From Sipunculus nudus (Eukaryota > Annelida > Sipuncula > Golfingiida > Sipunculidae), in NCBI GenBank assembly GCA_026874595.1, contig CM049307.1, forward strand, positions 34,762,862-34,826,861: a stretch of DNA of 64,000 nucleotides, read 5' to 3'. The notes under the pieces were generated by a model. That model saw nothing but the letters and a program-made list of their open reading frames with translations. It was not told the DNA's origin and did no database searches. Shown here piece after piece: positions 1,111-62,403 of this stretch; position 1 is the first letter of the stretch, and every line of letters begins with the position of its first letter. The position numbers were made by a program, and so were the translations under genes.

Positions 1111-1768
1111 CTACCAAACAAACTTATGAAGGCATATGTAAATGCTCACATGGTGAAACAACTACATTTAAAGACTGTTGAATGGTTGTTGAGTGTCAAA
1201 ATTATTCTAACTATGGACCCATGGGTCTTGACTCTCAGATGAATTTGATTGTAAGGATATTTCAATGCTGGACCATTACTTTTCAAGTACATGTGAACCA
1301 TGTATATGAAAATGCAAGTACTAAACAATTTGAACAAGAACCAATAACACAAACATCATTACTTAAATACTGGATTAGGTGCACAAAACACAAAATTGAT
1401 TGATTATATAAATCTTATCTGCCCAAAATCAAATAGCATGAGTTTTTTGTACTATAAACTTTCCTTTTCATATCATTGTTGACTGTACGATGGTCAACAG
1501 ACGAGGGACAATGCACACCATCGCATAAGCTCACAGGTTAGCTAAAAATATGAGGTGCCACCAGTATTCAGGAACTGAAGAAACTAATTATGATCAATAA
1601 GGGCATCACTAGATAACATTGCATCTAAATACTAACATTACTGTGATTTGATGGGAGAAAAAAACTACAGGAGTCACCACCAGTCTTATACAACTGAAGG
1701 AACTAGTCATGTTCATAAAACATACCTGGTTTAAGTGACCTCCCTGGATATTTACTAAGAAGTTTCTA
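1111..1768 (+). repeat. mosaic of R2 and R3 repeat pieces
   Basis: At 1211 there is an R2-type 5' palindrome (GGACCCATGGGTC) followed by a degenerate arm. Bases about 1263-1390 match 36503-36610, inside an R3 element. An R3-type 3' end (CATCGCATAAGCTCACAGG, then TTAGCTAAAAA) closes at about 1549. R2 sequence resumes and ends in TCAGCTGAGCTAAAAAT near 1898, inside the duplication unit. The simplest reading is an R3 fragment inserted into an R2 element. No coding potential. Confidence 0.5.
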
Positions 1769-1899
1769 GGTCCAGGAGTTAAGATTTGTGCCCTGCAAAC
1801 AGACACCCAGATGGCCGGGCACCTGGATGCCCTGATGGGAGACAGACAATGTGCCATTCCTATACCTCAGTTGACCTTCAAGTCAGCTGAGCTAAAAAT

Positions 1900-3250
1900 T
1901 GTAATTGTAGTAAAAGTGAGACTGCTAACCCATGACAGAAGCCATGCCTCTTGGCTAAAAAGGTTCAGTAGAAAAAGAAGGTTGTAACTATATAAATGTT
2001 GTGTTTTTGTTAAGTTGTTTTACATCTCATTATCAGGCCTTTGCTTCCTTTTCAGCTTAAGTGTCAAATTGTGTGGGACAGATGGTGGAACAGACTATAA
2101 ACATCTAATACATCAAGGGACTTCGTGAATCCACAAAAATCAGTGTAGAAGGGATGAAGTAAGGCATGGTGGCAAGGGGAAATAGTTAGATGTGTTACAT
2201 ATAAGCATGGATGTCTGCCAATTAAACATGCTTGAAGGTGGCACCACCTATTATTTGAAAAAGAAACTATCCAAGATGTATGCACATACAAAGGTTCAGG
2301 TGGAAAAGTCTAACCACCGCCGAGATATGAGTGATTTTATCCCACAGCAGACAAACAGATGGACGCTGTCCAAAATGGTTGCAGGTGGTGACACCAGTTT
2401 TGTGTATGATGGAGAGATATGTGAGATCCAAACACATGCCAAACTTCAGGCAGATACGTCAAACCAGTGAGGAGATATAAGCATTGATGTCTGCAGCATG
2501 AATGTGAATGTAGGTGGTGACACCTGTCATAAAATCACGAAAGCTATACAGGATGTATAAGCATGCCAAGTTTCAGGTGAATAAGTCAAACCACTGCCGA
2601 GATATGAGTGATTTTAACCCAAGTCAAAGGAACAGATGGACACTGTGCAAAAATGGTTGCAGGTGGTGCCATCAGTTTCTTGTATGATACAGAGCTATGT
2701 GAGATCTAAACACTTGCAAATTTTCAGGAAGAAAGGTCAAACAGGTCTGGAGATTTAGGCATGGATGTCTGCAGTGTGAATGTGAATGTAGGTGGTGCCA
2801 CATGTCAGAAAATCAAGAAAGCTATCGAGGATGTATAGGCATGCCAAATTTCAGGTGAATTAGTCAAACCACTGCAGAGATAGGGGTGATTTTAACCCAA
2901 GGCAGAAAAATCAGATGGATGCTGTGCAAAAATGATTGTAGATGGTGCCACCATTATTGTGTATGTTATAAAGCTATCCAAGGGCTACATTTGCGCAAAA
3001 AACTTTTCCTGATTGGTCAAACGAGTCTGAAGATATGTGTGTTTGTGTGTCAAAACAGACGCACAGATGGACGCACTGGACAGAGGAAAAATCAGAGGTC
3101 AACGCAAAATGGTTAGACACCAGTTCACATGTGTAAGTTTCAGAAAAATTGGTCCAGTAGTCTCAGAGGAGTTCTCCGGAAACCAATACAGCGCCAGGAC
3201 CCGGTCAGAAACACAGTATCCGCAAAACTTTGTTTTGGCGAATACAATTA
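1900..3250 (+). repeat. R1 repeat element, unit A copy 1
   Basis: From about 2118 the sequence runs through degenerate tandem modules with the phrases 'gccgagatatgagtgatttta', 'cagacaaacagatggacgctgt' and 'aggtggtgccacc'. It ends in the R1 3' hairpin at about 3217-3247, GTATCCGCAAAAC paired with GTTTTGGCGAATAC. Modules are about 130-150 bp. Unit B retains only about 470 bp of this element because of an internal deletion. Confidence 0.6.
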
Positions 3251-3260
3251 CTACTGACTA

Positions 3261-3548
3261 TGTGGTGAAAATGACAACCAAACATCTGGTGAAAATAACA
3301 ACTAAACATCTGGTGAAAATGACAACCACACAGCTGGTGAAAATGACAACTAAACATACGGTGAAAATGACATTTAACAGCTGGTGATAAATGACAGCTA
3401 AACATCTGGTGAAAATCACAACCAAACATCTGGTGAAAATCACAAGTAAACATCTTGTGAAAATCACAACCAAACATCTGGTGAAAATCACAACTAAAAA
3501 TCTGGTCAAAATCACAACCAAACATCTTGTGAAAATGTCAACTCAAAA
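3261..3548 (+). repeat. 24-bp minisatellite
   Basis: About 12 degenerate copies of a 24-bp unit with consensus CATCTGGTGAAAATCACAAC plus CAAA. Because 24 is a multiple of three, several frames on both strands stay open and read as octapeptide repeats such as KITTKHLV. These are by-products of the period. The array starts directly downstream of the R1 3' end. Confidence 0.85.
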
Positions 3549-4735
3549 TGTATCTTTGTTTATAAAATATATCATGGAACACCTCAGTCTTGGTTTTGTT
3601 GGCTGCTTGTAACCACTATGTAATCATGTCATATTCTGTCACCTCACACTGAATCAGTTTATGGAACAATAAAATAACTACAGGGCCATCTTGGATCAGG
3701 TTGCAGAACAATTAGAAATTGGAGGACTTGATAAAATAACTACGTAGAACAATACGATAATAAAAGGGCTGATTTATCTGTCATCATGTGATGATATATA
3801 TTTAAATATCCATCCCAATATATTATATATTATATATAAATATTCTATTCTAATATTTAAATTATATCAGGATACAAAATACTAAATTTATTTATAGGTA
3901 TACTTTACACATCACAAAATTCATGCAAAACACAAGGAATGTTTAATTTTAAATTACCATTTACATGAACTAATTTGCCTAGTGAACAAATCAAGAAACC
4001 TGGTATCTAAAATTAACACATTAAATAATATTTTAACTCTTTGACAAATAATGCATGTACTTTATGAGATATGATGCTCCTCATGCTTTCTGTCCACTCT
4101 GATTTTCAGAAGTGAAAGTCCCAGTGTGTGTATTCATTATTGAAGTTCTTGTGTTCCAATAAACACCTCTGAATTATGCCCAAGTTCGTCATGTGTGACC
4201 AGTATTCATTGTTGCAACTTGGTCAACCTTAGCAAATATTCAAGTGACTGGTCTCTACCATGTTAATACGGTTTACATGACAAATAACCATCACCAAGAA
4301 CTGTCTATATCATATGAATAAACTTACTACTTACCAATAGGAGGAACCAATTATTAATTGATATGTAACAGTTGTAATCATTTGGTACTGTGATGTATTC
4401 TGAACTGTGGACATTCAGATAATACACTGCCTTTTTACTACATACTAAGTGAACACATACAAAGCTGTGCTGTGTTGATATTAAGACAGATCAATACGGC
4501 CAAGGTGAAGAAGACTTCTTATGAAGTATGTCTGTGGCGGTATCTACTTGTATATCAATAAATGAACAGTGAACACAATGTGTCTCCAGACAGGTATCAC
4601 AGCACAAACACTGAATAGGACAATAAATACAGCTGGTGTATGTTAACCTAGCAGTGTATTGTATAATATACCATTCACTGCATTTAACAGTAACATAGAA
4701 CCTGAAAGTTACTAACAACAACCTGTCAAACTTGG
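3549..4735. other. non-coding, AT-rich part of duplication unit A
   Basis: Duplicated at 19150-20335. No convincing exon, RNA gene or transposon end was seen. It contains short AT-rich runs such as 3820-3850. Confidence 0.5.
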
Positions 4736-5000
4736 AGCATGGTGGTATAATGGTGGTATAAAGGTTAAAGGAGCTGGACTTGGGTAATTGCGCAAGGTTG
4801 TGGGTTTGCATCCTGATGTAACAGCTGTCTGCGCTAAGACTCCTAGGCAAAGTCTTTACCACAAGGATGCGCTCTCTTGACCCAGGAGTGAATGGGTATT
4901 GATCATGGGTGGAAGGCAAATGTAGAACGAATAACCTTCTAGTGCCTGTTATGACTGCTTGGTTTGTATGCTCCCCAGTGAGCCAAGAAAAGCTACAAAT
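4736..5000 (+). mobile_element. tRNA-derived SINE, unit A
   Basis: The head has a TGGTATAATGGTTAAAGG-type A box, locally duplicated, and a B box GTGGGTTTGCATCC near 4800-4813. The body includes CTTGACCCAGGAGTGAATGG. The same body appears in the opposite orientation at 12074-12308. Copies in unit B are at 20336-20600 (+) and 22257-22492 (-). The body differs from that of the SINE at 856-1110, so at least two SINE families are present. Confidence 0.7.
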
Positions 5001-5844
5001 TATCACATCTCAAGTAAAATTGCATTACTCCTTGCCCTGTTAATTGACAACAAAAGCCTTTTTCAAATTTCATCACAAAATTGCCCAAATATCACTCCAT
5101 TAAATTGTTAATAATAGCTCTAGGTATAAGTCTTAATAAATATAGCAACAAATCTGCATCATAAGAGGCACTTATTTCTGCATGAACATGGAGACATGTC
5201 CTATTATTTATAAACAAAACATAAAGCACCCCAATATGGACTGGTCTTGGATACCAGCACGGCAGCAGTTGAACCAAATGATTACTTTTCTCACAAAAAC
5301 TGGTGCTGAGGAAAAGAGAGGACTTATTTTTCACTGCCTTACTCCATATTTAAGTATATATATATAACTGCAGTACAAGTGAAACATGACTTTTTAATAT
5401 TTTTTTATAAAAATATTTTTATCTGACCCTTGGATAAGCTGTTCCGGCAATTGTGACTGGTATCATGACTCCCAGGCCCAGTCCATTGATTTAAGAGAAG
5501 CCTGTGTGTCATGTTTTCATGGCTACATTGCCACATATGTTGTCTTACAAACAGCTTGAATATAGTTCACAAACACATACATCCATAACAGGGGGATTTT
5601 TACAGCCTTTCTCAGCAATTTTTAACCCATATTTCTTTAATATATATGCAGGATAAGTCAGAAATCCTACAGAAAATGAAAAGACTGGAACTATCATCAT
5701 GATTCTAATGATTTATTTATGATAATTTATTCAAATTTTATATATTAAGAATTTGAACAAATGACCAATGCAACACAGTTTAAGTAATTATGACTGAGAA
5801 ATTACAATTCTGTGTGTGAACAGTTAACCACCACTGCACACTGA
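5001..5844. other. non-coding flank left of the hAT insertion
   Basis: Present in both duplication units (B: 20601-21444). Short open frames here are conserved only because the duplication is young. No recognised feature. Confidence 0.45.
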
Positions 5845-5852
5845 GCAGTGAC
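5845..5852 (+). repeat. hAT target site duplication, left
   Basis: GCAGTGAC, repeated immediately right of the element at 11263-11270 and present once at the empty site 21445-21452. Confidence 0.95.
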
Positions 5853-7191: not shown

Positions 7192-7772
7192 TTTCTTCAT
7201 ATTCAGTGCTCACAAACAGTAAAAAATGACAGTTTCTCAATAAGGATTGTGTCATTTGTTTAATTGTTTACAAAGTTGTCAGTTTGCAAGATCTTCGGGT
7301 CAGCAGTAATATAGGGGTATGGACTGTTTTCCAAATACTTTGACAGCACTTTTTTTTTATGAACACTGAATCATTGATCATCTTGATTTTGCATGCTCAT
7401 CAATTTTTCATGGAATTGAAAGCTTGTTTCAATATGTTACTGTTTCAACTTGTAACATTATATAAATGTGTTTATTGAGACATTTATTTAAAAAAAACGA
7501 AACTGATCTTTCTCTAAAATGTACGTAATATGTACTATGAAACTGCAGGGCACGAATCATATAAGAATATTAAAGAAATAAAAATCCAGTGAAATTTATA
7601 TGACATAACTTTGAACCAGGTAAAGCCTTAAAATTTTTATTTTATTTTATATTCTAACCATGTGTTTGGCATCATGAAAACAGGATGTTATTATGTTAAT
7701 ATGTTATTACATTTTTTAAATTATATTGGATCAAGCACTTACATTATTCGGAATGTTATGGTATTATTAATG

Positions 7773-7784
7773 TTTGTATTTCAG
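7773..7784 (+). promoter_or_regulatory. likely splice acceptor before the transposase exon
   Basis: A T-rich tract ends in CAG at 7782-7784, 10 nt before the first in-frame ATG. An in-frame TAA at 7768-7770 closes the frame just upstream. Both agree with an exon beginning at 7785. Confidence 0.5.
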
Positions 7785-7794
7785 AGAGCAGCAT

Positions 7795-9840
7795 ATGGTT
7801 GAGATAAATGCAACAACGAGTCAACAAGGGAATTTAAGGAAGCGAAGAACCCCAAACACAAATGTTTCAATTAATCTGGCTCCTGAAAATTCCAAACTGA
7901 TGTCATACAAAGTTATATCTGATCCTGCAAAGGTAAAACGACATAGCAAAGTCTGGAGATACTATGGTCTTTTAGCAGATGGCAATGGAACTATCCTTCA
8001 AGAAGATGTATATTACTGTCGTCCATGTTTAACACAGGAAATAGACCTGCTCCGTGAAGGAAAAGCTGCACACATATCACGAATTCATCACCTTGAGGGT
8101 GGTACAGGCACAGGAAATATAAAAGTTCATCTCTTCAAAAAGCATAACATTGACACAGACAAGGACAGTGTGTTAAGAAAACAAAAAAATGTCTTAACAA
8201 ATTATTGCCAGTTGAAACCAACAGCAGCAAATTCACAATACGACATGAATAGAGATATTGTTCTATGGCTAAGTGAAGACTTGCAACCATTCAGCATTGT
8301 GGACAAAACTGGCTTCAAAAAGTTCACAGAGAAGAACTTTGGTATAAAATTGCCAGACAGGTCTACACTGGGGAAAGCCCCATTTGTTGACATGTACAAG
8401 ACCATTAAAGAGCACATTAAGTCAGAGCTACAGAGGGCTGAATCAGCAACGCTAATGTTTGATGGCTGGACAGACAGGTACCAGAAACTGCCATTTTTGG
8501 GAGTAAGAGTAGCTGTGATGCTGGACTGGCAAGTAAAGATCTTCACTCTGAGCTGTGTGCCTCTGGAGGGCCACACAGCAGCTAACATGAAGGACCATTT
8601 GAAAGACCTCATCTCTGACTTCTTTGGGAAGAATGCCAATGATCTGAAATTGCATGCAGTTCATGATGGTGCAGCAAACATGATGAAAACCTCAAGGTTA
8701 TTGAATATTGACAACCCACAACACTGTGTTGCACATGTTCTTCATTTACTTCTGAGTGAAGATGGGTTTAACAAGTCTGCAGCAGTGTCCGAACTCTTAC
8801 ACAAAGCTAGGAATATTGTGACTGCTCTTCACTACAAAAGCTACTCCCTCAGTCAAGAAGCTCTGTTCGAAAACGACCTAGCGATATTTGACAAGATATC
8901 CGAAGCATGTCATGTTAATCAGTTGGACGAGCAGTTCCCATTCCAACAGTTCTTCCAAGAGCCAGACACAGCGTGTACTGATACAGCCCAGCAGGCCTCC
9001 CATAAAACGCTCAAGATCCAAAACTGCACCAGGTGGAACAGTGCTTTAAGCATGCTCGAGTCAATTCTTTCCATGAAGAACGCATGTATGAACATGCTTA
9101 AAAAAATCGGCAAGTATGACCTCGTCATGGACGACGACGAAATACTCCTATTGCAAAATGTCGTTGACTTTCTCCAACCATTTCGAGATATGACAGAAAT
9201 TGTTAGCATATCAGGGAATTCCCTTGCCATAATTCCACTGATTAAAGGTCATATAGAAAATGTCTGTCAGGCGAAAGCTGGGGATTGCCCTGAAATCAAA
9301 CAACTAAAGAAAGCAGTTGCAAGCAGGATTGATGACCGATTAAGGATGTCAGACACTGCCAGAATGGCATGCATGGTTGATCCAGCCGTACGCCACATCT
9401 TTACTAAAGATGAAGTAATGGACACACTAATGGAGCAAGTAGATCCAAACCTACCAGGAGAAGGTGGCCCCTCAACATCTACAAATGTGGAGCCTAACAT
9501 GTCAAAGAAAATGAAGCTGTTGACATCACTAATTCCAAGCACATCTGTTGAAAAGGAAGACGATGGACTCAGAAATGAGATAAGAAATTATCAAGTACAT
9601 TCCCCAAATGTAGAGGAAAAGGCCAATGCATTGATGTTTTGGCAAAACAATCAAATGCATTATCCCCGACTCGCGATTGCAGCCAAAGAGTATCTTTCAA
9701 TCCCGTGTGCCAGTGTCCCCGTTGAGTGCATGTTTAGCACAACTGGTCTTATCATGAATTCAAAGAGGAGTTCACTAAGTCCTATGACAATGAATATGAC
9801 AACATTCATTCATGATAATATAAATTTCGTCAAGCCTTGA
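7795..9840 (+). CDS. hAT-superfamily transposase with BED zinc finger
   Basis: The 681-aa enzyme would excise and integrate the surrounding element in the nucleus by the DDE cut-and-paste reaction. Numbering from ATG at 7795, a BED-type finger has C75, C78, H112 and H117 as likely zinc ligands. The RNase H-like core has D223 in FDGWTD and D291 in HDGAANM, then the hAT-typical HCVAH (C311, H314) and the RW pair at 413-414 (TRWNSAL). The C-terminal dimerisation region has the third catalytic residue E644 in SVPVECMFS. All three acidic residues are present, with no stop or frameshift. The frame is open upstream only to 7771. A splice acceptor (TTTGTATTTCAG, ending 7784) sits just before the ATG, so an upstream exon may add residues or be non-coding. 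A possible polyadenylation signal AATAAA lies at 9941. An Ac/ZBED-like branch is likely; a domesticated host gene is unlikely given the intact TIRs and target duplication. Confidence 0.93.
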   Translation: MVEINATTSQQGNLRKRRTPNTNVSINLAPENSKLMSYKVISDPAKVKRHSKVWRYYGLLADGNGTILQEDVYYCRPCLTQEIDLLREGKAAHISRIHHLEGGTGTGNIKVHLFKKHNIDTDKDSVLRKQKNVLTNYCQLKPTAANSQYDMNRDIVLWLSEDLQPFSIVDKTGFKKFTEKNFGIKLPDRSTLGKAPFVDMYKTIKEHIKSELQRAESATLMFDGWTDRYQKLPFLGVRVAVMLDWQVKIFTLSCVPLEGHTAANMKDHLKDLISDFFGKNANDLKLHAVHDGAANMMKTSRLLNIDNPQHCVAHVLHLLLSEDGFNKSAAVSELLHKARNIVTALHYKSYSLSQEALFENDLAIFDKISEACHVNQLDEQFPFQQFFQEPDTACTDTAQQASHKTLKIQNCTRWNSALSMLESILSMKNACMNMLKKIGKYDLVMDDDEILLLQNVVDFLQPFRDMTEIVSISGNSLAIIPLIKGHIENVCQAKAGDCPEIKQLKKAVASRIDDRLRMSDTARMACMVDPAVRHIFTKDEVMDTLMEQVDPNLPGEGGPSTSTNVEPNMSKKMKLLTSLIPSTSVEKEDDGLRNEIRNYQVHSPNVEEKANALMFWQNNQMHYPRLAIAAKEYLSIPCASVPVECMFSTTGLIMNSKRSSLSPMTMNMTTFIHDNINFVKP

Positions 9841-11262: not shown

Positions 11263-11270
11263 GCAGTGAC
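11263..11270 (+). repeat. hAT target site duplication, right
   Basis: GCAGTGAC, identical to 5845-5852. Confidence 0.95.
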
Positions 11271-12073
11271 AAATAGGGACATGCCCCCTAAGACAGGATA
11301 TGGCTAATTCAGCTTCTCATGAAGATGGAGGAAATAAAGGACTTGCTGGCACAGGCGGTTACCCGTTTGTGCAGGCAAGCGTGATTTAGCTGGACACTCA
11401 TTAGCATGAACGAAACTGACTATCCCCACTTTGTTAGATAATGTTAAATCATCCAAAGCAGTTGATTAAAGATCAAATTCTAATTCAAAATGTGTCGAAT
11501 GCAACCATTTTTTCTGTCTTTTCATGTCTCTGTAATATTTTTTTAAACACAGCATGATAAATGTAATAATCACGTATCATGATGATTGGCAATTAAAAAC
11601 ACTATGTCTAGTGCATACAGAGCTGTGTTGAATGAATGGGCTTGTCCGGTTGGACTCTAGGGGGCACTAGTTGTTTGCCTGTAGTTTTTCAAGCAGGCAG
11701 TTGTTTACTGCCTCCATGCACAAGAGTATCGGAATTAGTGATATCCCGTATAAGCTAGCAGCCTGCCATGCCAGTGGTCACAGCTTTTCCTGTAAACATG
11801 GGTGCACACCTCATTTCTGGGAGTGAAAAAAAACACTTTGCAGTATATAATCAAATTCAATTTATTAAAGGGGCCCAATTACCTACATGACTTTTATAAA
11901 CTAAAGAAAATTCTTTAGAGTTTTTATAAAAAAAAAGGCCAGAAAACTTGGATACATTTGCACACAGGCTGCTTGTTTTGTAAAGGTGGGGGTTTATAGT
12001 CTGATACCACAGACAATGTCAGTCTCATCTGACTTTACACTTTGCCTTCCTGGTCTTTCAGGCTTGTTGATTC
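11271..12073. other. non-coding part of duplication unit A, right of the hAT
   Basis: Duplicated at 21453-22256 with about 2-3% differences by eye. No gene or repeat end identified. A diverged relative of 11868-12640 without the SINE may lie at about 44960-45150. Confidence 0.4.
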
Positions 12074-12308
12074 TTGTAGCTTTTCTCGGCTCCCTGGGTG
12101 AGCATATAACCCAAGCAGCCATATCAGGAGCTAGAAAGTTATTCATTATACATTTGCCTTCCTCCAATGACCAGTACCCATTCACTCCTGGGTCAAGAGA
12201 GTGCATCCTTGTGGTAAAAACTTTGCCTACGAGTCTTAGCTAAAATGGCGGTCAGAACGGGACACAAACCCACAAGTCCAGCACTCTATAGATCCATTAC
12301 ACCACCAC
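12074..12308 (-). mobile_element. tRNA-derived SINE, reverse copy, unit A
   Basis: The reverse complement starts with TGGTGGTGTAATGGATC and shares the body CTTGACCCAGGAGTGAATGG with the plus-strand SINE at 4736-5000. Its B-box region reads GTGGGTTTGTGTCCC. With the SINE at 4736 it forms an inverted pair within each duplication unit. Confidence 0.65.
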
Positions 12309-13534
12309 ATTGTTTATATCAACATGTTTATAATATGTATATAATATGTGCTAAAATAATCAAAACAAATTCAACATGGACATCTGGCAGCAAGTCAGAT
12401 AAGCCAGATTTTTGCAAACTGCATTTTGCAACAAGTGACCTTTGCATTCATGCATTCATGCAAACTACCAGCTTAGGTTACATGTTTTCCTATTTGTCAA
12501 CATTGCTGTGTTTACAATCATGCTGTTGATAAACAAGTTCACAGAGGCCTTATAAAATCTTTTCAAACCAGCATAACAGAGGAAGCCAGAAATCACATAA
12601 ATTCTTGTTCAAAAGGTAAATGAATGGGCACAAGGGTGTGAAATTCCTTTGTCTGACTCGTCCGACACAGGAATTTTTTAACACAGACATTTTATGCCAC
12701 TTACTCGTCTGTGGACAAGCAGAAAATACAAAATAATATTCACTGAAAAATGTGTAAAGAATATGCCAATGAGAATGTATCCTTTATCGATTACGCGTAG
12801 AATGCGTTTTTTGCTCCAATTCATGTGAACAGCGTGTTCTGTGTTGATAAACATAGAGGCCGATATTGTTTGCTGACGATAGACTAGTTCCCCTCTACTA
12901 CAAAGTTGCTTTTGTTATTTCTCTATGGATGTGATGACAAAGTTAGGAGCAAGGGAACAAGTCTATGCTGGTGTCAACTTCTGCAATCATCAGATCATCA
13001 GCAACATCCCAATTCACCAACATGCCAACCGCCGTCTTTATGCCAAATTTAGACATTTAGTTCACATCAGGTTCTGAACTTGTGAAAAATAACCAAGGAT
13101 ATCATATTTTAGGAAAAGGGTAGCATCTTTGAAAATGGTTGGCATCCATCCAGCATTGGCAATCATTGAGGCAGAGAGCAGGAACCACTTCAGTCGCCCT
13201 CACAATGATTCAGTTTATATCAGCCGCTGCGAGCACCATGGCATTTCAAACAACTGTGGCTCATGTGTGCCCATAATGGTATATTCAAATGAAAAATGAT
13301 GTTTAAGATATTGGCAATTGTAACTTTTTAATGCCATGTAATTTATTCTTTAGCAAAAATAAAGTCTGGCAATTGCCAGAGCATTCTCAAGGTTTGTTAT
13401 GCATTAGAACCTGTGTGTGGTCTGTTCCATCAAGGGGATGCCCAAAGATCCATGTCTGCATGCATGTAACGCGGTGTTGGTATCCAGGCACAGCGAACAG
13501 AAAAACAGAGTGCGGTAACTATGGCTAGCATGAT
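12309..13534. other. unassigned part of duplication unit A
   Basis: Duplicated at 22493-23725. It holds one short frame of note at 13135-13299, listed separately. Otherwise nothing recognised. Confidence 0.4.
13135..13299 (+). pseudogene. short open frame, possible exon relic, unit A
   Basis: A 54-codon frame from ATG encodes a Cys/His-containing peptide with the stretch SRCEHHGISNNCGSC. It is preceded by an acceptor-like TATCATATTTTAG. The copy in unit B (23325-23486) is the same but for one codon and an earlier stop, which fits any sequence of this duplication age. No family recognised; coding status doubtful. Confidence 0.2.
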
Positions 13535-13689
13535 TAACAAGGCCTACAGGCCTAATGCAAACCTGTGCAAAGTTTGGGAGTATGAATGGAGGATTATTTT
13601 AAAAATTGATCCTCTTATGTCCTGCATATCTACCTTAGTATTATGATTTCAGCAAAATGGATGTTTTGGACCTGCAAGTTTTGGACTAG

Positions 13690-15625
13690 GACATTTTAAA
13701 ACTAGAATATGGGTAGTAAACATGCGACTACATGTATCCGCCAAAATCAGAGTGAGACGGGTGAAGTGAGGCATGGATTGAGTGGCAAGGGGAAATAGAG
13801 TGAGGTGTGCATATTAGCATTGATGCCTGCAGCTGAAATGTGTATGTAGGTTGCACAATCTACCACAAAATCCAGAAAGCTGTCCAAGTTGTATACATAT
13901 GCAAAATTTTAGGCAGATAATTTTAACCACTACTTGTATATGAGTGATTTTATCCCACAGCAGACAAACAGAAGGACGCTGTCCAAAAATGGTGGCAGGT
14001 GGGGCCACCAATTTTGTATATAAATAAGAGCTATATGAGATCTATACATACGCAAAATTTCAGGGGGATATGTCAAACCAGTCCTGAGATATAAGCCTGA
14101 ATGTCTGCAGCGTAAACATAAAAGTAGGTGGTGCCACCTGCCACATAATCGAGAAAGCTATCCAAGATGTGTAAACATGCATAATTTTAGGCAAATATGT
14201 CAAACCACTGCCGAGATATGAGTGATTTTATCCCATGGCAGACAAACAGACAGATGCTGTGCAAAAATGGTAGCAGGTGGCGCCACCAATTTTGTGTATG
14301 ATTAAGAGCTATGTGAGATCTATACACATGCAAAATTTCAGGGGGATATGTCAAACCAGTCCTGAGATATTAGCCTGAATGTCTGCAGCGTAAACATAAA
14401 TGTAGGTGGTGCCACCTGCCACAAAATCGAGAAAGCTAACTAAGATGCATAAACATGCAAAGTTTTAGGCAGATAATTCAAACCATTACTGAGATATGAG
14501 TGATTGTAGCCCACGGCAGACAAACATACGGACGCTGTGCAAAAATGGTGGCAGGTGACACCACCAATTTTGTGTATGATTAAGAGCTATGTGAGATCTA
14601 TACACATGAAAAATTTCAGGGAGATATGTCAAACCAGTCCTGAGATATAAGCCTGAATGTCTGTAGCAGATACATAAATGTAGGTGGCGTCACCTGCCAC
14701 AAAATCCAGAAAGCTATCCAAGATGTATAAACCTGCAAAAGTTTAGGCAGATATGTCAAACCACTGCCGAGATATCAGTGATTTTTCCAACGGCAAACAA
14801 ACAGACAGATGCTGTGCAAAAATGATTGCAGGTGGCGCCACCAATTCTGCGTATGATAAAGAGCTATGTGAGATCTATAAACATGCAAAATTTTTGCCAA
14901 ATCGGTCAAATGGTTCCCGAGATATGAGCTTGGATGTCTGCAGCTTAAATGTGAATGTAGGTGGCGCCACCTGTCATAAAATCAAGAAAGCTGTCCAAGA
15001 TGTATATACAGTGGAACCCCACAATTACGACCACCTTGGGGACTGACCAAAGTGGTCGTATTTTGGAGGTGGTCGTATTTGTGAAACTCTAAGTTACCTG
15101 GATCGTGTATTTAGGACCAAAAATAGTGGTCATAATTGTGGGGTGGTCGCAATTGCGGGGTGGTCGCAATTGCAGGGTGGTCCCAAGGCGGGGTTCCACT
15201 GTACATGCAAAATTTCAGGTGGATAAATCAAACCAATGCAGAGATATGAGTGTTTTTATCCCAAGGCAGATGAACAGATGGACGCTGTGCAAAAATGGTT
15301 GCAGGTGGCACCACAATTATTAGTGTATATTATAAAGCTATCCAAGGGCTACCTTTGTGCAAAATTTTTAGCCTGATCGGTCAAACGGTTCCCGAAATAT
15401 GTGGGATTATGTGTGGAAACAGACGCACAAATGAATGCTGGGCAGAGAGGAAAGGTCAGAGGTCAACCTAAAATGAGGGCACAGCAGTTCACATGTGACC
15501 CGATCATAATTCCAAATTTTAAAAAAAATTCTGCCCAGTGGTTACAGTGGAGTTCTCCGGAAACCTATGTGGCGGTGGCGTCGGCGTCCAACTGAAAACA
15601 TAGTGTCCACAAAACTCTGTTTGTA
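13690..15625 (+). repeat. R1 element with palindrome-bearing tandem array, unit A copy 2
   Basis: The 5' arm GTATCCGCCAAAATC begins at about 13736. Tandem modules repeat about every 277 bp, each made of two half-units of roughly 129 and 148 bp. Each half-unit begins with GGTGGCGCCACC or a one-step variant (perfect copies at 14276, 14831, 14960). It ends near 15600 with a degenerate 3' arm. A pogo-like MITE is inserted at 15009-15201. Confidence 0.65.
15009..15201. mobile_element. pogo/Tigger-like MITE, unit A
   Basis: A 193-bp element with TIRs CAGTGGAACCCC and GGGGTTCCACTG, flanked by TA on both sides, inserted into an R1 module. The interior is built from short GGTGGTCG-type repeats. The unit B copy (25334-25492) is 159 bp because it has fewer of these. 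No coding capacity. Confidence 0.8.
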
Positions 15626-17134
15626 GCTCGCACCACCAGTCTTGTATACAACAAAGACATATATACATATGCCCAATGTTAGACTGATATGTCAAACCCC
15701 TCCTGTGAAATAAGCACGGACATACACTGTGCAAAAATTATTGTAGGTGGGGCCACCAGTCTTATACATTATAAAGCAACCTGATATGTATAAACATGCC
15801 CAATTTTAGGCTGATGTATGAAATTCCTCTGTAGAAATAAGAAGGCACTGCAAAAGTCAATGTAGGTGGCACCACCTGTCTTGTAAATGAGAATACCATC
15901 AAAGACACATACACAGGTCAAAATATCAAGCCAATACATCAAACTTCCCTAGAGTTTGATGCACTGGGCTGAACAGGCTTAGGTGAGTAAGGCAGTTCGA
16001 GTGAACTGTGACAAATTGCTGCCTCAAGCTACTGCACTGAGTGAACTCATGACCTGCACCTGGCTAGACTGAGTGAACTTTTGACCTGTACCTGGCTGCA
16101 CTGAGTGAACTCTTGACCTGTTGCATAATCTGACACAGTTGGCAGTCTGCCAAAGCTATAAACAGATCCAGGCTGAACTTTGGTGCCAAATCTGATGCAG
16201 TGAGCAGTCTGCCAAAGCTATAAATAGAATGCAGCTACTGCACTGAGTGAACTCTTGGCCCATACTTGGGTGCACTTCTTCCAATCCTGGCACTGTGCCA
16301 AAACTATTTATAGAGCTGACATCATCCTGGCTAATGGCCAACATCAAGGCACTGGCAATTTGCCAATGGTAAACCAAGTGCTGCCATCTGTACACAAAAG
16401 TGGTCCCTACTTGAAATAAATTTGAAATTAATTTTCCTAATACAAAATGTTTTCAGCTGACCTTTTATAAAAAAAATCAGGAATATATGTAAAATTATTA
16501 CAGATGCGTACTGAATGCAAAATTAAAATACAGATATATCTCATTGATGGCAATATTTTGAATTAAGTTGAGTAGGGATACCAATAATTTATAATCCATG
16601 TACAGTTGTCTTTATATAGCCACAGACAGTGGAATATCCATGATTGTAACATTGTCTGGTATGATGAATAAATTAAATCATAAATCTGAATTTTTTAAAA
16701 GCTTTTAAAAAAGCTTTCTTGTCAATATTAACCAAAGATAACCTGAAATCTAAATGTCTAGTGGCATGATGTAATAGATGCTGATAAACTGGTGCCAGGC
16801 TAGATGTAACAGCATCACACAGCTAACATATATGGTAAAATGACTCAACTCAATCTCCATAATTCAGCCAAAAATCATTCATGTGGAACCATTAATGACA
16901 ATTATTATAAGAATTATTGTAGGGATTATTCTTGTAAAATATTTAACAAACTGGCTTCAGTGGCATCAGTCGAAAAACATTTCGCAGGTTTATAACTCAT
17001 ATAGGAAGATACAGCAAACTGGCTAAGTTCAGCTTCCTGTAACTCAGCCAAAAAGCACTGAACCAAAACCATTTCAACAAACTTGAATTATCATCATCTG
17101 AGAATGATTAATGTGTGAGATTTAAGAATTTAAG

Positions 17135-17242
17135 ATGATCCTAGGGTAGAGCTTTTTTAAGTTTATTCAAATGGTCTCTATTTTTGAAGAGATTATTAGA
17201 GACCATTTGAATAAACTTAAAAAAGCTCTACCCTAGGATCAT
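17135..17242. repeat. perfect 46-bp inverted duplication, unit A only
   Basis: Bases 17135-17180 are the exact reverse complement of 17197-17242, separated by 16 nt. The right arm is the ancestral sequence, shared with unit B near 27510-27560 and with 39465-39515. The left arm replaces about 150 bp present in unit B. Confidence 0.9.
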
Positions 17243-18851: not shown

Positions 18852-18861
18852 CTACTGACTA

Positions 18862-21444: not shown

Positions 21445-21452
21445 GCAGTGAC
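21445..21452 (+). other. empty hAT target site in unit B
   Basis: A single GCAGTGAC where unit A has two copies flanking the 5410-bp element. No excision footprint is visible, so this is the pre-insertion state. Confidence 0.95.
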
Positions 21453-48700: not shown

Positions 48701-51700
48701 TGTAACATTGGTACTATGAAATAACAGACAAGTATTAAAAGAATTATTTTAAAAGAATATTTTTATAAATTAAATAGATAATACATGTGCCTGCAGTATG
48801 ACTTTATCAAAGTGACTGTAGTACTGGTATGAGTTCATATAGCATTGTAGGCGGTGTGCACCCGGTGAGACGCATCCCGATAAGACATACGTCCCAACGG
48901 TCTTTCAGTCTTTCCTTCATTCTTCCCTTCGTTGCATAACTCTTTCTTTCTTTCTTTCATTTATTTTTTGTCTTCTGGTTTTACATTAAGTTTACGGTTG
49001 GTTGATGGAAGATGGGTATTCATTAGCGGTTCTTTATGGACTCAATTAGCGGTTAGTAGGAACTCAAAGGTATAAGGTTTTAAATGATTCATCATCCAGA
49101 AACCTTTGATCGACATTTTTCGTCCGTTAATTAAAGATTCATCCTTTGAACTGTACGAGTGGCCGCGTTGGGTGAATGGTTTCTCGTGACCGCGTTTATA
49201 CTGCGGCTTCGCTGGTCTCTGGTGAGCAGTTCGTTCATGTTTGAGCAGACTAAATATGTTCTCACGACATGATAAACATACTTATAATAGTGAAAATTAT
49301 AACAGGAATATGGAAAATAAAGTAAGAAGTTACACGTTAAACCTGTAATTATCAGTCATTTAAACCTCTGGTTAGGCCAATAAATTGGAGAACACTGATG
49401 GGTTAACCATACCCGGAGTTTATCACTATTGAGGGATGGTTGTACTTTAAGCCAAAATAATGCTCTAATTAACAATAAAATTACTAAATATTTTGTCAAA
49501 CTTCAGTTAAGGAACACAACGATATAAGTGCATGAGGGTAATATAGTAATAATGGATAACACAGATATACTAGGCATTAACGTGTGCTGATTTGACGTAT
49601 GTTGCATCGATCACAGAGCTTAATGATTTCCCAAAGTGACCCAAGAGAGGGTTTACTAACGAAAGTATAATTAACTATTATTACTTAGTCTTTTTGTTTT
49701 AGTACATGTAAAGTTTAGACAGTCAGACAAGTGATACATGTACTCTTATTTTAACAATACGTCCTATCAGGATACGCTTCAGTGGGTACGTCCCGGCGGC
49801 CTACGTCCCAAAAATCTGCGTCTCACCAGCCTGTAGTCTTGTAGGCTTCCATACGTTATGGGTAGTGAAAACACCATAAGCTTATCATGAACATTTTGGG
49901 TCTGCACTGCAACTACATCTGGTTCCATATTCTATTTTTCTTAAATGTGTGTTATTGCAATCTGTATGATTAAAATGCAAACTGGCTTGTGAAAATAAAT
50001 CTAGGTACATTTCAGAATATGCATATGGATTGATGGATGTGAGATAAGATGTACATGTCAATATAATAATACACAATTTATCTGTCTCATAACACCAAAC
50101 ATTCCTCTGTTTATCCATGGTTTACTAATCAAAGGTCAGATTGTGCCAGGTTACCTATTTGGCTGTGACCTGCTTTGTCCAGTACTCTTATGTAATTAGC
50201 ACCAGTGGTCACCAGCAGTGTGGCAGCTGGCCCATGCTTGCCTCAACAATAGGCACTTCCTGGGCAATTGCTGGACAAGAATTGAGTGTGTTCAGCATTA
50301 TTTGCTGATATGCTTCATGATCAAGGGGCTCACAGGAAGTAATAGAAAGTAATATGTATTACTCTATTACTTTGCCTTCTGTTTCTATTACTATTACTAT
50401 TACAGCTAAAATTTTTGAGTCTATTACTATTACTATTACTTATTACTATTACCCCATGTCTGGGCATGGTAGGGGATTTTGGAGACATCTAATTGTATGC
50501 CAAATTTTAGGAACTGAGAGCTGAAGCTGGGAAGCTGAGCTCTTGCAAACTGCATAACAGAAGCTTGATGTAAACAATATGTTACATGGTACTTGAAAAC
50601 TTGAATAAAATCTACAGTTTTTGATCAACTGGTTTCAAATATTTGATGTTAACAGACAAAATGCTAATAAAAACATGCTGTAAAAATTAAATCCACAGTA
50701 CTTACAGGAAAAAAACGTGCCATGGTCAAAGTTGGGCAAAATTTAAGGTACCAATTTTTTATTTTTGTTAATATTTCAAAAATTTTTAAAAATTTTGATC
50801 TAATTTTGGGTATACAATTTAATTTGATATTAGGCAGTCATAAAGTGTGAAAATATGGTTTCAAAATGTGCCACATCTACAGACGGACGGACAGACGGAC
50901 GGACAGACAACTGACAATGTACCATGACTATAGCTCAGATGACTTATAGTCAGCTGAGCTAAAAATGTCTGTAATACTCACCCGAGGAAACACAGGAGCA
51001 CACACATGAGCCAGGTGTAAGTCCCTACTTCATAATATCTGGATGTGACCACTTGTGCTTGGCAGTGTGGACATATTGTGCTGGCTGGTCCTTCACGGAA
51101 CATTGGCACCACTGTAGAATGAACAACTGGCTGCTGGGTAACTACCACCGTGGATGATTGTCCATAACGCGCATGACCTGGCTGTCCATATGCTGCCTGA
51201 GCTGGCTGTCCATACACTGGTGGAGTAGGCTGTCCATATGCCCCCTGTCCATAAGGAAGTTGAGGTGGCTGTCCATAACTAGGTGGTGGTGATGATATAC
51301 CTGCTGGTGACAGAACAGACCTTTTCTAGCAACACCTATGGGCAATATCTGACATGTATGATTCAGGGTTAGTAACCTACATGTTTATAATGGTCAGTGG
51401 TGGAAGGGGTTTTGTTTCATTGACATAAGTTATAGGGTCCTTGACCACGGTGAGAACCTGAATGCAACAGGGTTCATCTTGTAAAGCTATCTTTTGAACG
51501 TTTCTATTCCAACAACTAATGTTTGCCTGTGCAGGCACATCCCTCTGATCAATAGGATTTTGGGGTAAAACCTAGGAATCTTTGGTAATAGCTGGGTAAA
51601 ACCTATTTTACCCAGCCCAGCATTTTGTGTGGGGCAGGGTAAATTTAGTAGAAATGGTACAATATATTGATAAATTAATGAATCTATAAATGCTAGAAAT

Positions 51701-56726: not shown

Positions 56727-59563
56727 AACAAGGGACCCATGGGTCATGGCGCTCAGCTGATCATGATTGGACTATAAATGTATCACCATTGTTATACTAT
56801 ATTGAGTAGAAAAAGCTTATGAATATCATGGTCATGTTGGGCTTTAATAAAGGAATATAATGTAATATGTGAGTAAATGATATATGAAATAATCTGACTG
56901 ATGGATTAATATGGAGTAAAATATAGTGGTTTATTTTTTATTTATTTGGAAGGGGTCGAAAAAAACAATTTATTTGAGCAAATATGAATGCAAAGACAGT
57001 ATACTAAGCAGTGGTATAATGATGATAAGGCTATTTGTTGAAGGATCTATAGTGTATGGAAAACTGCAAGCTTTCAATTTGACAGATACAAGGTTATGAT
57101 TAACTATGCTGATGAGGGGATTTATGAATTTGTGACTGTATGACATGATATCTTAACAAGATCGGTCTTGACAAGGTACATTATTTTGATGACCCTCAAG
57201 TCTACATATTACACAATATTGACATAATTTCTGGCATGTACATAGGTACCTATGGACAAATGGTCAACATTACTGAACCACCTAGAAGGTTAAAATATTA
57301 AAAATATGATGAAATGTAGATAAAGTTTGAGAGGAAGAGGTAATTTGGGCCATGGTTGGTTTATATGATTGAAGAAAATGTTGCAAATAATATTTGAGAT
57401 CTGACCATGCCTTTCCATTGGTTACATTTTTGATAAGCTGTTGACAGTTCAACAGTTTACACATTTGTCTGATGAGATCCAATTTATTTGGTGAACCTTT
57501 TTTATCAATGTTATGATATGTATACAGTTGCCATAACGTCCCCACTCCACAGTTGCAATGACTTGATTGGGGGGGGTGGGGGGGGGGGGGGGTGGTTGTT
57601 GTGCTATGATCAGAGTTACAACGCCTCTGTCTCTCTGTAGATATTTTCTTTAATTATTAAATTTTATGCTATAGCCATAGAACTATTGTTCACTGTGCCA
57701 AGGAGCAAAGCCTCAGTGGGATGAAGAAGGGAATGGTGAGAGTTACAACACCCTTGCATATACATACAGGATATGAAATTTAATTCAACAGTGCTTATAA
57801 AAAAAAGTTTATTCATGAACATTAAATATTTAAAACAGACAGAAAGATGGAGAAACAAAGCAAATCATTTTTTTCCCCATTCTACTGAGCCAATAACAAG
57901 GGACCTATGGGTCACTGTGCTCAGCTGACGTTAACCTTGAAGGTAAAAATCTAAAATAATATCAAATGGAGATAAAGTGTATGAGGAAGAGGTAAAAAAG
58001 GCCATGGTTGGTTTACATGATTGGTTTGTATTGATGAGCAAGAAATTGTTGCAAAAAATATTTTGTGACCTGACCATGTGTTTCCTAATGTTGAAACTAA
58101 AGCATGTGAGCAGTTTGTGAACAAATGATCTGTACTATTACCATGATCATTAGTTGGTTTTTCAATTAACTGTTGACATTTCTGTAGTTTACACATTTGT
58201 TCAATTGAATCTATTTTTTTGTATAAAAAATATTATTAAATATATATGTATTTTTTTATGAAATGTATACAGTTGAAATATAGCTAATTAACAACATAAA
58301 AAAGGGCAAACAAAGCCTGATCTCAAATTCTGCTAAGGCAGGAAAATAATGAACAAATGTTTGTATTAAATCCTCATTTTTTTATCACATCAATTATTTT
58401 CTAATTTAAGTTTATATTTCTATACATTTCCAATTTATCATATATATCTGAATATAAAAGTTGATTCATAATTCTTGATTGCATCATCATAAATCTCAAT
58501 CTTGTCAGATAACACCACATCATGCATACAAATGTTTATTTATTTTTTACCACAAAAATATATCTTTTAAATCTGCAAAACAATAAATATCTAAAAATAA
58601 TACTTGATTTAGATTTCACAATTTTTAATTGTGTCTTTATTTATCCATAATGTGCTTCATATTTTATAATAATTTAAGCATACTGATGGGTTCAATTATA
58701 TTTGTTAAAATCATTTAAAAGAAAATTGATTTCTTTAAAAATGCTACATTACACAACATTGCATCTTCTGGACTACACCTTGAATTATTTTTTCAAGGAA
58801 AGTTTTTGAATATCGGAGTGGAAACAGCATTACAATTAAGGAGATACAATGAAAACAATAACAATTACTGCATTACACTTGGTGGGTTGGGTTTGCCGGG
58901 GGGGGGGGGGGGGGGGGGGGGTGATTGGGGTGGTGATATGAGAATAACTGTACACCTGTCACAGCAGGGGATCTCCCCCAGTGACTGTAACAAATCAGAA
59001 ACCCTGGCATAGCTGACTTCCAGTGACCTGGAGTGGGACCCTGCATCTGTAATCAAAGCAAGTGACTACAGAAAAAAAAATCAATAACTAGCTTAATTTT
59101 CAAGCTTTTACTTTCAAATTTCAGATTTAGACAAACAAAATATTTATGTTTACATGCTGTGAAAATTAAATCAATGGTGCTTACAGGAAAAAAACGTGCC
59201 ATGGTCAAAGTTGGGCAAAATTTAAGGTATTGGGTTTTTTTTTTATGCTAATAACTTAAAAAATTTACAAAATTCGGATCTAATTTTGGGTAAACAATTG
59301 AATCTTAATTAAACATAGTTATATACTTGAGAAAATAGACTCTAGTTTCAAAATTTTTCATGTTAAGTGAGTTATTATTTTTCCTGATTTTTTATAAAGT
59401 CCATTATGTTTGGGCCTATAACTTAAAGAATTTATATACTTTACAGACTTAATTTCTGGCATGTACATAGGAACTATATAGAGGAATATTTATGGTAAAT
59501 ATGAGGAAAAACAGATGAGTGGTTTTGATATTAGGCAGTCCTGAAGTGTGAAAATAGGATTTT
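56727..59563 (+). repeat. R2-type repeats, nested
   Basis: R2 5' ends (AACAAGGGACCYATGGGTCA) occur at 56727 and 57895. Bases 59160-59558 match the R2 interior at 42610-43010. The R2 body is interrupted at about 59560 by the 338-bp array element. G-runs at 57569-57594 and 58898-58921. Confidence 0.6.
56872..58476 (+). repeat. second tandem duplication, first copy
   Basis: Nearly identical to 62404-64000. Only a few substitutions (for example AAGGGGTCG against AAGGGTTCG, CAAAGACAG against CAATGACAG) and a G-run length change were seen. The repeat distance is about 5.53 kb. Confidence 0.9.
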
Positions 59564-62403
59564 AACAAGTGACCCATGGGTCATGACGCTCAGCTGACTG
59601 GGAAGATATTCGCAAAAGGAAATTTTATCAATAGAATGGTAGTATATACCCATTCAACTGAAGCATCAAACAGATTAACCAACAGGCCAAGATTTAGTCT
59701 GTATTTATATATCTCAAAAAAAGAGAAAAATGTGTAAACTTTTAAAACTTGAATACGGGTAACCGACAAGTGACTACATGTATCTGCCAAAATCGGATAG
59801 TGAGGCATGGATTGAGTGGCAAGGGGAAATAGAGTGAGGTATGTTGCATATTAGCATGGATGTCTGCAGCCTAAATGTGTATGTAGGTTGTGCCACCTAC
59901 CACAAATCCAGAAAGCTGTCCAAGTTGTATACACCTGCAAAATTTTAGGCAGAAAAGTCAAACCACTACATGTATATGAGCGATTTTTGCCCATGGCAGA
60001 CAAACAGACAAACACTGTGCAAAAATCTTTGCAGGTAACCCCTCCAGTTTTGTGTATGATAAAGACCTATGTGAGATCTAAACACATGCACAATTTTGGC
60101 CCAATCGGTCAAATGGTTCCTGAGATATGAGCTTGGATGTGTGCAGCGTTAACTAGAATGTAGGTGGCGCCACCTGTCATAAAATCAAGAAAGCTGTCCA
60201 CGATGTATAAACCTGCAAAATTTTAGGCAGTTATGTCGAACCACTACAGAGAAATGAGTGATTTTAGGCCACGGCAGACTAACAGACAGACGCTGTGCAA
60301 ACATTGTTACAGGTGGCGCCACCATTTTTTGTGTATGTTACAGAGCTATCAAAGGGCTACATTTGTATAAATTTTATTTCCTGATCGGTCAAACGGTTCC
60401 CAAGATATAAGCTTGGATGTCATCAGCGTGAACGTGAACGTAGGTGGCGCCACCTGTCATAAAATCAAGAAAGGTATCCTGGATGTATACGCATGATGAA
60501 TTTCAGGTGAATTAGTCAATTCACTGCAGAGATATGAGTGTTTTAACCCAAGGCAGATGAACAGATGGACACTGTGCAAACATGGTTACAGGTGGCGCCA
60601 CCATTTTTTGTGTATGTTATAAAGCAATCCAAGGGCTACATTTGTATCAATTTTATTTCCTGATCAGTCAAACGGTTCCCGAGATATGAGGGTTTATGAG
60701 TGGAAACAGACCCACAAATGGACACTGGATAGAGAGGAAAGGTCAGAGGTCAACGCAAATTGGTTAGGCACCAGTTCACATGTGACCCGATAATAGGTGT
60801 AAGTTTGGGAAAAATCGGTCCATTAGTCTCCGAGGAGCTCTCTGGAAATGAACGCCGCCGCGGTGGAGGAACTCGGTCAAAAACATAGTATCCGCAAAAC
60901 TTCGTTTTGGCGGATACAAAAATACAGGTGGCTCCACCAGTCTGCAGAAACTAATAAAAACACTTAATGGTCAATATCCATGCAAAAAATCATGGTGATC
61001 TCTGCATTAGTTGTTCAGATACTTCAGTTTTTGTATCAAATTGTCCATTATTCTGAGGGATACTTCGGAGTCCTATAGCTTGAAGGATATGGGTAACAGA
61101 GACCTAATTTCAAGTTTCCACAGGCACCTTTCATGGGCCTCCTTGCATGACAAGAATGAAGATTCTAGGTCCAGTTGTTGCGATTTGTACCCTGTTGACA
61201 GATAACCACATCTTTAAAGGTCTCAAAAAAAAGAAAAAAATTGGTAAAAATTTGAAAAAAAATAGAGGTGGCACACCCAGTCTGCAGAAACTGATGGAAC
61301 AGCTCATGATCAATATGTATGCCGAAAATCATGACCATCAGTGTTGTAGTTATTGAAATACTGCAGTTTTTGTATCAAATTTTCCATTATTCTGGGGGGG
61401 GGGGTGTATTTTGGACCCATACAGCTTAAAGAATATGGGTAACAGAGACCTAATTTCAAGTTTCCATGGAGACTTTTCATGGGTCTCCCTGTGTGTCAAG
61501 AATGAAGATTCTTGGTCCAGTTTTTATGATTTGTGCCCTGTTAACAGATGTTCATATCTTTAAAGGTCTCAAAAATACTGAAAAATTTCGTAAAAAAAAC
61601 CGAACAAATACAGGTGGTGCCACCAGTCTGCAGAAACTTATGAAACACTCCATGATCAATATCCATGCAAACAATTATGGTTATCTCTGCATTAGTTGTT
61701 CAGATACTTTAGCTTTTGTATCAAATTTTCCATTATTCTGAGCTGTACTTTGGAGTGCCATAGCTCAAAGGATATGGGTAACAGAGACCAAATTTCAGGT
61801 TTCCATGGAGACTTCTCATGGGTCTCCCTGTGTGTAAAGAACAAAGATTCTAGGTCCAGTCGTTACGATTTGTACCCTGTTGACAGATAACTACATCCTT
61901 AAAGGTCTCAAAAATGGAGAAAACAATTCGTGAACATTGAAAAATACAGGTGGCGCCACCAGTCTGCACAAACTGATGAAACATCTCATGATCAATATGT
62001 ATGTCGAAAATCATGACCATCAGTGATGTAGTTAATGAGATATTGAAGTTTTTGTATGAAATTTTTGACTATTCTGGGGGGTAATTTTGGGCCCCATAGC
62101 TCGAAGGATATGGGTAACAGAGACCTAATTTCTGGTTTCCATGGAGACTTTTCATAAGTCTCTCAGTGTGTCGAAAATGAAGATTCCAGGTCCAGACGTT
62201 ACGATTTGTGCCACGCTAACAGATGACAGCATCCTCAAAGGTCTCAAAAATAGAGGAAAAAATCGTAAAAAATCAAACAGTACAGGTGGCGCCACCAGTC
62301 TGCAGGAACTGATCGAACATCTCATGATCAATATGTATGCCAAAAATGAAGACCATCAGTGATGTAGTTATGAAATATTGAAGTTTTTGTATGAAATTTT
62401 TTA
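59564..62403 (+). repeat. 338-bp tandem array element, copy 2, with nested R1
   Basis: It starts AACAAGTGACCCATGGGTCA like 34064. An R1 element (59748-60918) is inserted where copy 1 reads CTTTTAAAAAAAATACAGG. Five ACCAGTCTGCAG-marked modules follow (60935, 61274, 61619, 61957, 62294). Perfect GGTGGCGCCACC at 61949 and 62285. The last module is cut by the duplication junction at 62403. Confidence 0.75.
59748..60918 (+). repeat. R1 element, best-delimited copy
   Basis: Delimited by comparison with the uninterrupted array at about 34240. It begins CTTGAATACGGG. Its 5' arm is GTATCTGCCAAAATCGG (59780). Palindromes lie at 60163, 60312, 60443 and 60591, spaced 149, 131 and 148 bp. It ends in a hairpin: GTATCCGC and AAAAC (60888-60900) pair with GTTTT and GCGGATAC (60904-60917). 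The 5' arm matches the 3' strand of this hairpin. Confidence 0.75.

Follow-up and report, generated by a model that had tools for sequence, protein, structure and literature searches.

Three probable lineages of Helentron-related HINEs in Sipunculus nudus, and Helentrons ending in the RIGHT terminus of one of them

The pearl elements of bivalves resemble, by layout alone, three repeat families, R1, R2 and R3, in a stretch of 64,000 nucleotides from Sipunculus nudus (contig C2:34762862-34826861 of a 1.43-Gb genome in 153 contigs), which was analysed as a whole and is called the window here. Pearl has been re-categorised as a non-autonomous Helentron (PMC7492417). The Cg_HINE elements of the Pacific oyster carry a subterminal inverted repeat (subTIR) with an inner inverted repeat at one end, a microsatellite, short arrays of satellite-like modules, and a subTIR with a palindrome at the other end, and they occupy T-rich targets without target duplication (PMC7492417). 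Helentrons, HINE-Mo and DINE-1 have a subTIR near the 5′ end and a subTIR plus stem-loop at most about 60 bp from the 3′ end, insert at TT and have a partner with Rep, helicase and endonuclease (PMC4067079).

R1, R2 and R3 are like Cg_HINE in layout and targets, a likeness at the level of description (PMC7492417), and share end layout, TT insertion and, in the case of R2, type of partner with the Helentron, HINE-Mo and DINE-1 group (PMC4067079). We consider them three lineages of HINEs, i.e. non-autonomous, non-coding Helentron-related elements, with a probability of roughly 0.92; as such they are ordinary HINEs of a kind already known. Two differences from the described systems stand out. In the oyster study, no connection could be made between the HINEs and the autonomous elements examined, whereas two Helentron families of S. 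nudus end in R2 termini, a link that bears on the question left open there (PMC7492417). Unlike in the accounts of Helentrons, HINE-Mo and DINE-1 (PMC4067079), the lineages are nested here, with complete elements of one lineage carried inside elements of another, and orientation is coherent along the stretches examined. Judged by title, none of the papers listed for the terminal motifs or the palindrome deals with these repeats.

The end types of R1-R3 were defined by self-comparison of the window and by reading of the sequence. All three families follow a common plan: a LEFT subterminal repeat, tandem modules (278, 336-338 and 127 bp), a RIGHT subterminal repeat with a palindrome, and a CTWGTT end. 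The initial annotation had recognised the modules, the complementary arms and the termination of R2 and R3 by CTAAAAA, all of which were recovered in the window, although it read the elements in reverse: its 3′ hairpin is the 5′ (LEFT) end, and the published orientation (PMC4067079, PMC7492417) places every R1-R3 terminus detected in the window on the minus strand. In the sense of that annotation, the 3′ ends of R2 and R3 gave 5 and 3 window matches (0.07 and 0.00 expected from shuffles), the R1 3′ hairpin 3, the R2 5′ end 5 and the R1 5′ arm 3 (0.00 expected in each case). The arms are complementary in each family, namely GTATCCGCCAAAA in R1 (13 bases), GCTCAGCTGA in R2 (10-11 bases in the better copies) and GCGAACCTGTG in R3 (11/11 in copy 36444-40103), which compares with the at least about 11 bp expected of HINEs and other non-autonomous Helentrons.

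The LEFT ends differ between the families. Those of R1 (TTGTATCCGCCAAAAC..GTTTTGCGGATAC) and R2 (TTTTAGCTCAGCTGACT followed by the inner arm) form a hairpin, and that of R3 (TTTTAGCGAACCTGTGAGC) has none; a terminal hairpin holding the arm, as had been stated for R1 and R2, is reflected by fold z scores of −7.38 and −4.94, compared with +1.11 for R3. The RIGHT end of R2 consists of TCAGCTGAGC, five bases, the palindrome GACCCATGGGTC and CTWGTT, that of R1 of TTTTGGCGGATAC, a GTAGTCG..CGACTAC stem and CTAGTT, and that of R3 of CACAGGTTCGC, AGGCCTGTAGGCC and TTGTT, its palindrome being AGGCCTgtAGGCCT. The R3 RIGHT ends (plus coordinates 13536-13567, 23726-23757 and 36444-36475) emerged from a scan. 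Since all three families finish with a palindrome near the 3′ end and a CTWGTT-type end, their RIGHT ends are alike even though the LEFT ends differ, and the earlier description of the ends as unrelated was too strong. The folded RIGHT-end strands of R2 (two copies) and R1 did not stand clearly above shuffles (z −0.28, −1.24 and −0.74). Canonical Helitron features (5′-TC, 3′-CTRR, insertion between A and T) are not displayed; for instance, the LEFT ends of R1-R3 do not start with TC. The following elements were delimited in the window.

59746-60919, minus strand: full-length R1 HINE within an R2b element; LEFT end 60919, RIGHT end 59746; placed by its termini and the paralogous empty site 34248
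13700-15620, minus strand: R1 HINE within R3; LEFT end decayed and placed by reading
23890-25900, minus strand: R1 HINE within R3, duplicate of 13700-15620; LEFT limit approximate
2119-3247, minus strand: R1 HINE with its LEFT end at 3247 (duplicated at 18848) and no RIGHT end detected
1209-1897, minus strand: R2a HINE with an internal R3 LEFT end (1547); duplicate LEFT end at 18198
36620-37420, minus strand: R2a HINE within R3, placed by its termini
40611-43263, minus strand: R2 HINE with a c-type RIGHT end; ACGG microsatellite at 43166-43214
46296-50964, minus strand: R2, from a LEFT end at 50964 to the RIGHT end that comes next, at 46296; assumed from their order only to be a single element
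34064-35440, minus strand: R2b RIGHT end (35 bases shared without mismatch with a Helentron terminus), 336-bp modules and a fourth LEFT type
59564-62403, minus strand: R2b RIGHT end and 336-bp modules; the LEFT end is taken as one beyond the window, coordinate 74034
36444-40103, minus strand: R3 HINE containing R2a, placed by the RIGHT-end scan and termini
13536-17832, minus strand: R3 HINE containing R1, placed by the RIGHT-end scan and termini
23726-28146, minus strand: R3 HINE, duplicate of 13536-17832; LEFT end partly deleted
56872-62403, no strand assigned: unit 1 of a triple tandem array (about 5.5 kb per unit), followed by units 2 and 3 at 62404-67928 and 67929-73456

HINEs insert at TT without target duplication, and the junctions of R1 and R2 are T-rich. 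Counted with one row per distinct flank and with the window itself (L001) left out of the scans, T precedes TTTTAGC at the R2 LEFT end in 86% of 43 flanks. The base following the R2 RIGHT end is T in 46% and A in 32% of 41 flanks, with hits accepted at up to 3 mismatches from any of three typed end strings, in which the final bases are already contained, and T follows the R1 RIGHT end in 67% of 9 flanks. For R1 only, a paralogous empty site is available: position 34248 is an eight-T tract in an uninterrupted R2b, and the occupied counterpart holds R1 59746-60919 with five T kept on the left and four T after G on the right. Because eight T face five plus four, the target duplication amounts to at most one T, so that the check for target duplications proposed at the outset came out in favour of duplication-free insertion at this single site. 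All three families are abundant in the genome. The R1 LEFT end has 11,538 matches (5807+5731) and the R3 LEFT end 9,347 (4724+4623), both at up to 2 mismatches, and the R2 RIGHT end followed by T has 6,817 exact matches (3377+3440); reversed-pattern controls gave 0 in each case.

The autonomous elements expected under the HINE reading, with a Rep/helicase and a C-terminal endonuclease, were found with R2 RIGHT ends and, in the few 3′ regions covered, with none of R1 or R3. Scoring of 150 of 195 candidates across the genome gave 143 matches to PF14214, some of them lying in frames of more than 2200 amino acids. In the C17 Helentron, a 2342-amino-acid open frame contains PF14214 and ends in helicase and endonuclease-like sequence; the 3′ piece was joined to the PF14214 frame by coordinates, in frame, the middle lying outside the fetched sequence. 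About 1 kb past the stop follows an R2b RIGHT terminus in which 35/35 bases equal window positions 34064-34098. A second endonuclease family, C7, assigned by its endonuclease-like frame, continues into a c-type R2 RIGHT end with 0 mismatches to the 19-base pattern. Altogether, six Helentron regions were compared, one LEFT-side and five RIGHT-side (L052-L056), and among the latter L052 and L054 carry R2 ends. Hence, an autonomous Helentron with the same termini is present for R2, at the RIGHT end only. The endonucleases of L053 and L055 exceed at least one Pfam cut-off. Two herpes models of Pfam also gave matches, the tegument N-terminal model with the N-terminal part of the C5 Helentron frame (L051:3-572, minus strand) and a helicase model with the helicase part of C17 (L047:4500-5999, minus strand); we take both as remote homology within a transposon.

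The HINE interpretation of the initial annotation is thus backed by the layout and termini, the T-rich junctions, one R1 empty site and same-genome Helentrons ending in R2 termini. Its proposal that the termini define distinct rolling-circle lineages finds support for R2 (two Helentron families with two R2 RIGHT subtypes, one seen in a single copy); R1 and R3, for which no autonomous partner was found in the 3′ regions covered, are set apart as lineages of their own by their different subterminal repeats. Mechanistically, R1-R3 would carry only the LEFT and RIGHT signals around their tandem modules. The LEFT signal would be the subterminal repeat, folded with the inner arm into a hairpin in R1 and R2, and the RIGHT signal the complementary subterminal repeat, the palindrome and the CTWGTT end. 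The endonuclease-bearing Rep/helicase of autonomous Helentrons from the same genome would nick at the element ends, one strand would be peeled off by rolling-circle replication, and this strand would join into a T tract without target duplication. We infer that such Helentron proteins move R2, that R1 and R3 have partners of their own and that the rolling-circle steps occur.

Copies of different families tend to share their direction over long chromosome stretches. Over 104 kb, made up of the window and 20 kb of flank to either side, the thresholds applied detect 44 termini, all 44 of them on the minus strand, and about 19 elements are left by hand count when the triple tandem unit and the segmental duplication are removed. 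At other fetched loci, neighbours of the query element were concordant in 20 cases and discordant in 6 (p 0.009), a count that covers the 32 of 38 loci in which an R3 LEFT end occurs, leaves out ends closer to it than about 1.0-1.4 kb and missed opposite-strand ends in L007, L011, L021 and L034 as well as same-strand ends in L011, L021 and L027; the corrected hand count, given without a statistic, is about 23 concordant and 11 discordant. Further data come from contig C1 and comprise the first 100 places listed per pattern at the start of this one contig, chosen by listing order, so that all C1 numbers below hold among the matches listed; pairs are not independent, and minus is commoner than plus (67/100 for R2). 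The 100 R1 LEFT ends form 39 strand runs versus 50.8 expected (P 0.011), with 14/16 pairs on the same strand below 20 kb and 32/41 below 50 kb (p 0.0006). The R1 pairs at 50-100 kb (13/34 on the same strand) and at 0.8-1.6 Mb (0.42 of 371) speak against coherent orientation.

Agreement extends across families. At 3-200 kb, R1 and R3 agree in 109/150 pairs (100 and 57 matches listed; 0/56 circular shifts reach this value), with 16/25 at 20-50 kb (p 0.17), 28/43 at 50-100 kb (p 0.06) and 55/72 at 100-200 kb. When the 64 R1 and 36 R3 places listed in 12.6 Mb of C1 were set against the 100 R2 RIGHT ends listed there, R1 agreed with R2 in 102/128 and R3 with R2 in 66/74 pairs at 3-100 kb (0/99 circular shifts reaching either). 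The R2 majority at this distance predicts the strand of R1 with 36 right, 12 wrong and 16 without call, and that of R3 with 20 right, 2 wrong and 14 without call. The R2 ends themselves form 27 strand runs versus 45.2 expected (P 5e-5). All 46 termini listed in the first 1.2 Mb (13 R1, 24 R2 and 9 R3) are minus, and all seven listed R1 and R2 places at 1.23-1.40 Mb are plus. At long range, agreement is weaker and uneven: it is 0.61 at 200-400 kb (36/99 shifts reach it), 0.64 at 400-800 kb (3/99) and 0.52 at 0.8-1.6 Mb for R1 with R2, and 0.66 at 200-400 kb (14/99) and 0.70 at 1.6-3.2 Mb (0/99) for R3 with R2.

An account without fork-directed insertion, which would invoke the composition of the strands, segmental duplication or gene-related selection, has about an even chance of being right. 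T tracts of at least four are commoner on the minus strand in the non-HINE parts of the window (268 versus 220; AT skew 0.03), segmental and tandem duplications occur in the window, and selection against one orientation in long genes could contribute. A 55:45 ratio of T tracts is, however, small beside 44/44 termini, and the agreement spans more than 100 kb and holds between families with different LEFT ends. Moreover, listed R1 pairs with different loop variants, which are less likely to be recent duplicates because their loops differ, still agree below 50 kb (20/27, p 0.0096), but not clearly below 100 kb (29/51, p 0.19). Tentatively, and with somewhat less confidence, we propose that fork direction could set orientation: if Helentrons and their HINEs enter T tracts exposed as single strands on one template strand of the replication fork, the direction of forks along the chromosomes might be recorded by the relics of several lineages, which number in the tens of thousands. 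If the start of C1 is assumed to be a chromosome end, a leftward fork there would expose the minus strand as lagging-strand template, which fits the listed termini. There is a working precedent in the unrelated bacterial single-strand transposons of the IS200/IS605 family, which prefer the lagging-strand template and whose copy orientation follows chromosome-scale polarity as it seems to do here, there representing the direction of replication and here being read from sequence alone (PMC5371812). That Helitrons leave no target duplications is regarded as probably pointing to single-stranded movement (PMC5876387), and fork-set orientation of Helitrons was not reported in the parts of the literature covered by a narrow search. 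If the orientation holds genome-wide, target choice of a eukaryotic rolling-circle transposon becomes testable from sequence alone, and the polarity of replication (or transcription) could be mapped from the relics, as from a fossil record, even where replication data are lacking.

Several observations weigh against R1-R3 as HINEs served by Helentrons. The ACGG microsatellite attributed to all three families was listed only for R2 (43166-43214 and 50879-50908) and is degenerate, by reading, in R3, and by reading none was seen in R1. Before the final TT stands CTTG in R2b, R2c and R3, and CTAG in R1 and R2a, the latter resembling the canonical Helitron CTRR; the exact last base of the elements is ambiguous within the terminal Ts. 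On the side of the partners, the C7 R2 terminus was seen in one copy only, and the endonuclease of C17 scores below the Pfam cut-offs (23.4 versus 24.5 and 22.6 versus 27.4 bits), as does that of C7. The C5 sequence obtained excludes the endonuclease part, and the C17/C5 sequence covers the RIGHT side and does not reach the LEFT end; likeness to R2 is therefore seen at the RIGHT end, and an R1 copy is located within this Helentron by homology on its two sides. The 3′ regions of L053, L055 and L056 yielded no convincing R1, R2 or R3 terminus (one 4-mismatch match in L053), and neither they nor the partly covered C11 3′ region yielded an R1 or R3 partner, the RIGHT ends of the L055/L056 and C11 families lying beyond the sequence obtained.

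Given that HINEs are very common in this genome, that an R1 HINE does sit in the C17/C5 Helentron and that the Helentron LEFT end is unseen, the R2 termini beside Helentron genes might be HINEs that landed there by chance, with another element as the true partner. We consider this improbable. The C5 and C17 copies align over 645 bp with 98.9% identity, and they part one base beyond the terminus. In the C17 terminus region, only some 35-45 final bases resemble other fetched sequences by BLAST, and the part ahead of the subterminal repeat matches none of the R2 HINEs that were fetched. The second family, C7, has the same arrangement in its one copy. The candidate TTTCAGCTCACCTGATT was rejected as the C17/C5 LEFT end because homology between the copies extends further upstream. 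Movement of R1-R3 as miniature inverted-repeat transposable elements by a cut-and-paste (DDE) transposase is very improbable and for R2 largely refuted. It is suggested by the many copies, by short inverted repeats close to the ends and by a hAT-like open frame in the window, but in all three families the repeats are subterminal and not terminal, and one end is built differently from the other. Moreover, at most one T can be duplicated at the R1 site, and two endonuclease Helentron families carry R2 RIGHT ends.

Nesting connects the lineages. In the C17 and C5 Helentrons, R1 LEFT and RIGHT ends occur at the same place with different module numbers and with homology on both sides; since the Helentron LEFT end is unseen, it is this homology that suggests a whole R1 inside an R2-type Helentron. 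R2a copies across the genome carry an R3 LEFT end at a fixed join, followed about 250-315 bp on by an R3 RIGHT end in ten loci (L003, L006, L007, L008, L010, L013, L014, L016, L025 and L038), three of which (L007, L008 and L013) also have both R2 ends detected. Whole small R3 elements can thus travel inside R2 copies, and from R1 in the Helentron and R3 in R2a it follows that a lineage can carry another along as it spreads. Copies belonging to different R2 subtypes (L015, L018, L024 and window 36620) adjoin near-identical GTGTTGTGTGCA, the neighbourhood of which looks like a recurrent insertion site inside R3. At 35276-35440, R2b modules meet a LEFT end of a fourth type, TTATTACCTCCGCC, and the ends of this element possibly come from two lineages.

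The 12-bp palindrome GGTGGCGCCACC occurs 50 times in the window at up to 2 mismatches (0.38 expected) and recurs in three module groups, R1x/R1y/R3a, R2a/R2b and R3b, that lack strong mutual similarity; the closest cross-group module pairs were equalled by 15/300 shuffles. It was rejected as a proven functional site, as its conservation does not clearly exceed that of the remaining 12-mers in these modules: those kept as well or better number 5/88 in R1x, 0/88 in R1y, 11/88 in R2b, 15/67 in R3a and 55/88 in R3b.

The interval 56872-62403 is one unit of a three-copy head-to-tail array that reaches past the window, with copies 99.6-99.8% identical. Rolling-circle read-through was rejected as the origin of this 5.5-kb array, the junction lying inside modules and not at a LEFT end. 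A segmental duplication pairs 1768-5852 with 18070-21452 and 11263-17131 with 21445-27405 at about 95-98% identity where aligned. Among the reading frames are a 689-amino-acid open frame with a hAT C-terminal dimerisation domain (7771-9840, plus strand), a trefoil-like frame recognised by reading, and a LITAF-like zinc ribbon frame (50978-51325, minus strand) that adjoins an R2 LEFT end.

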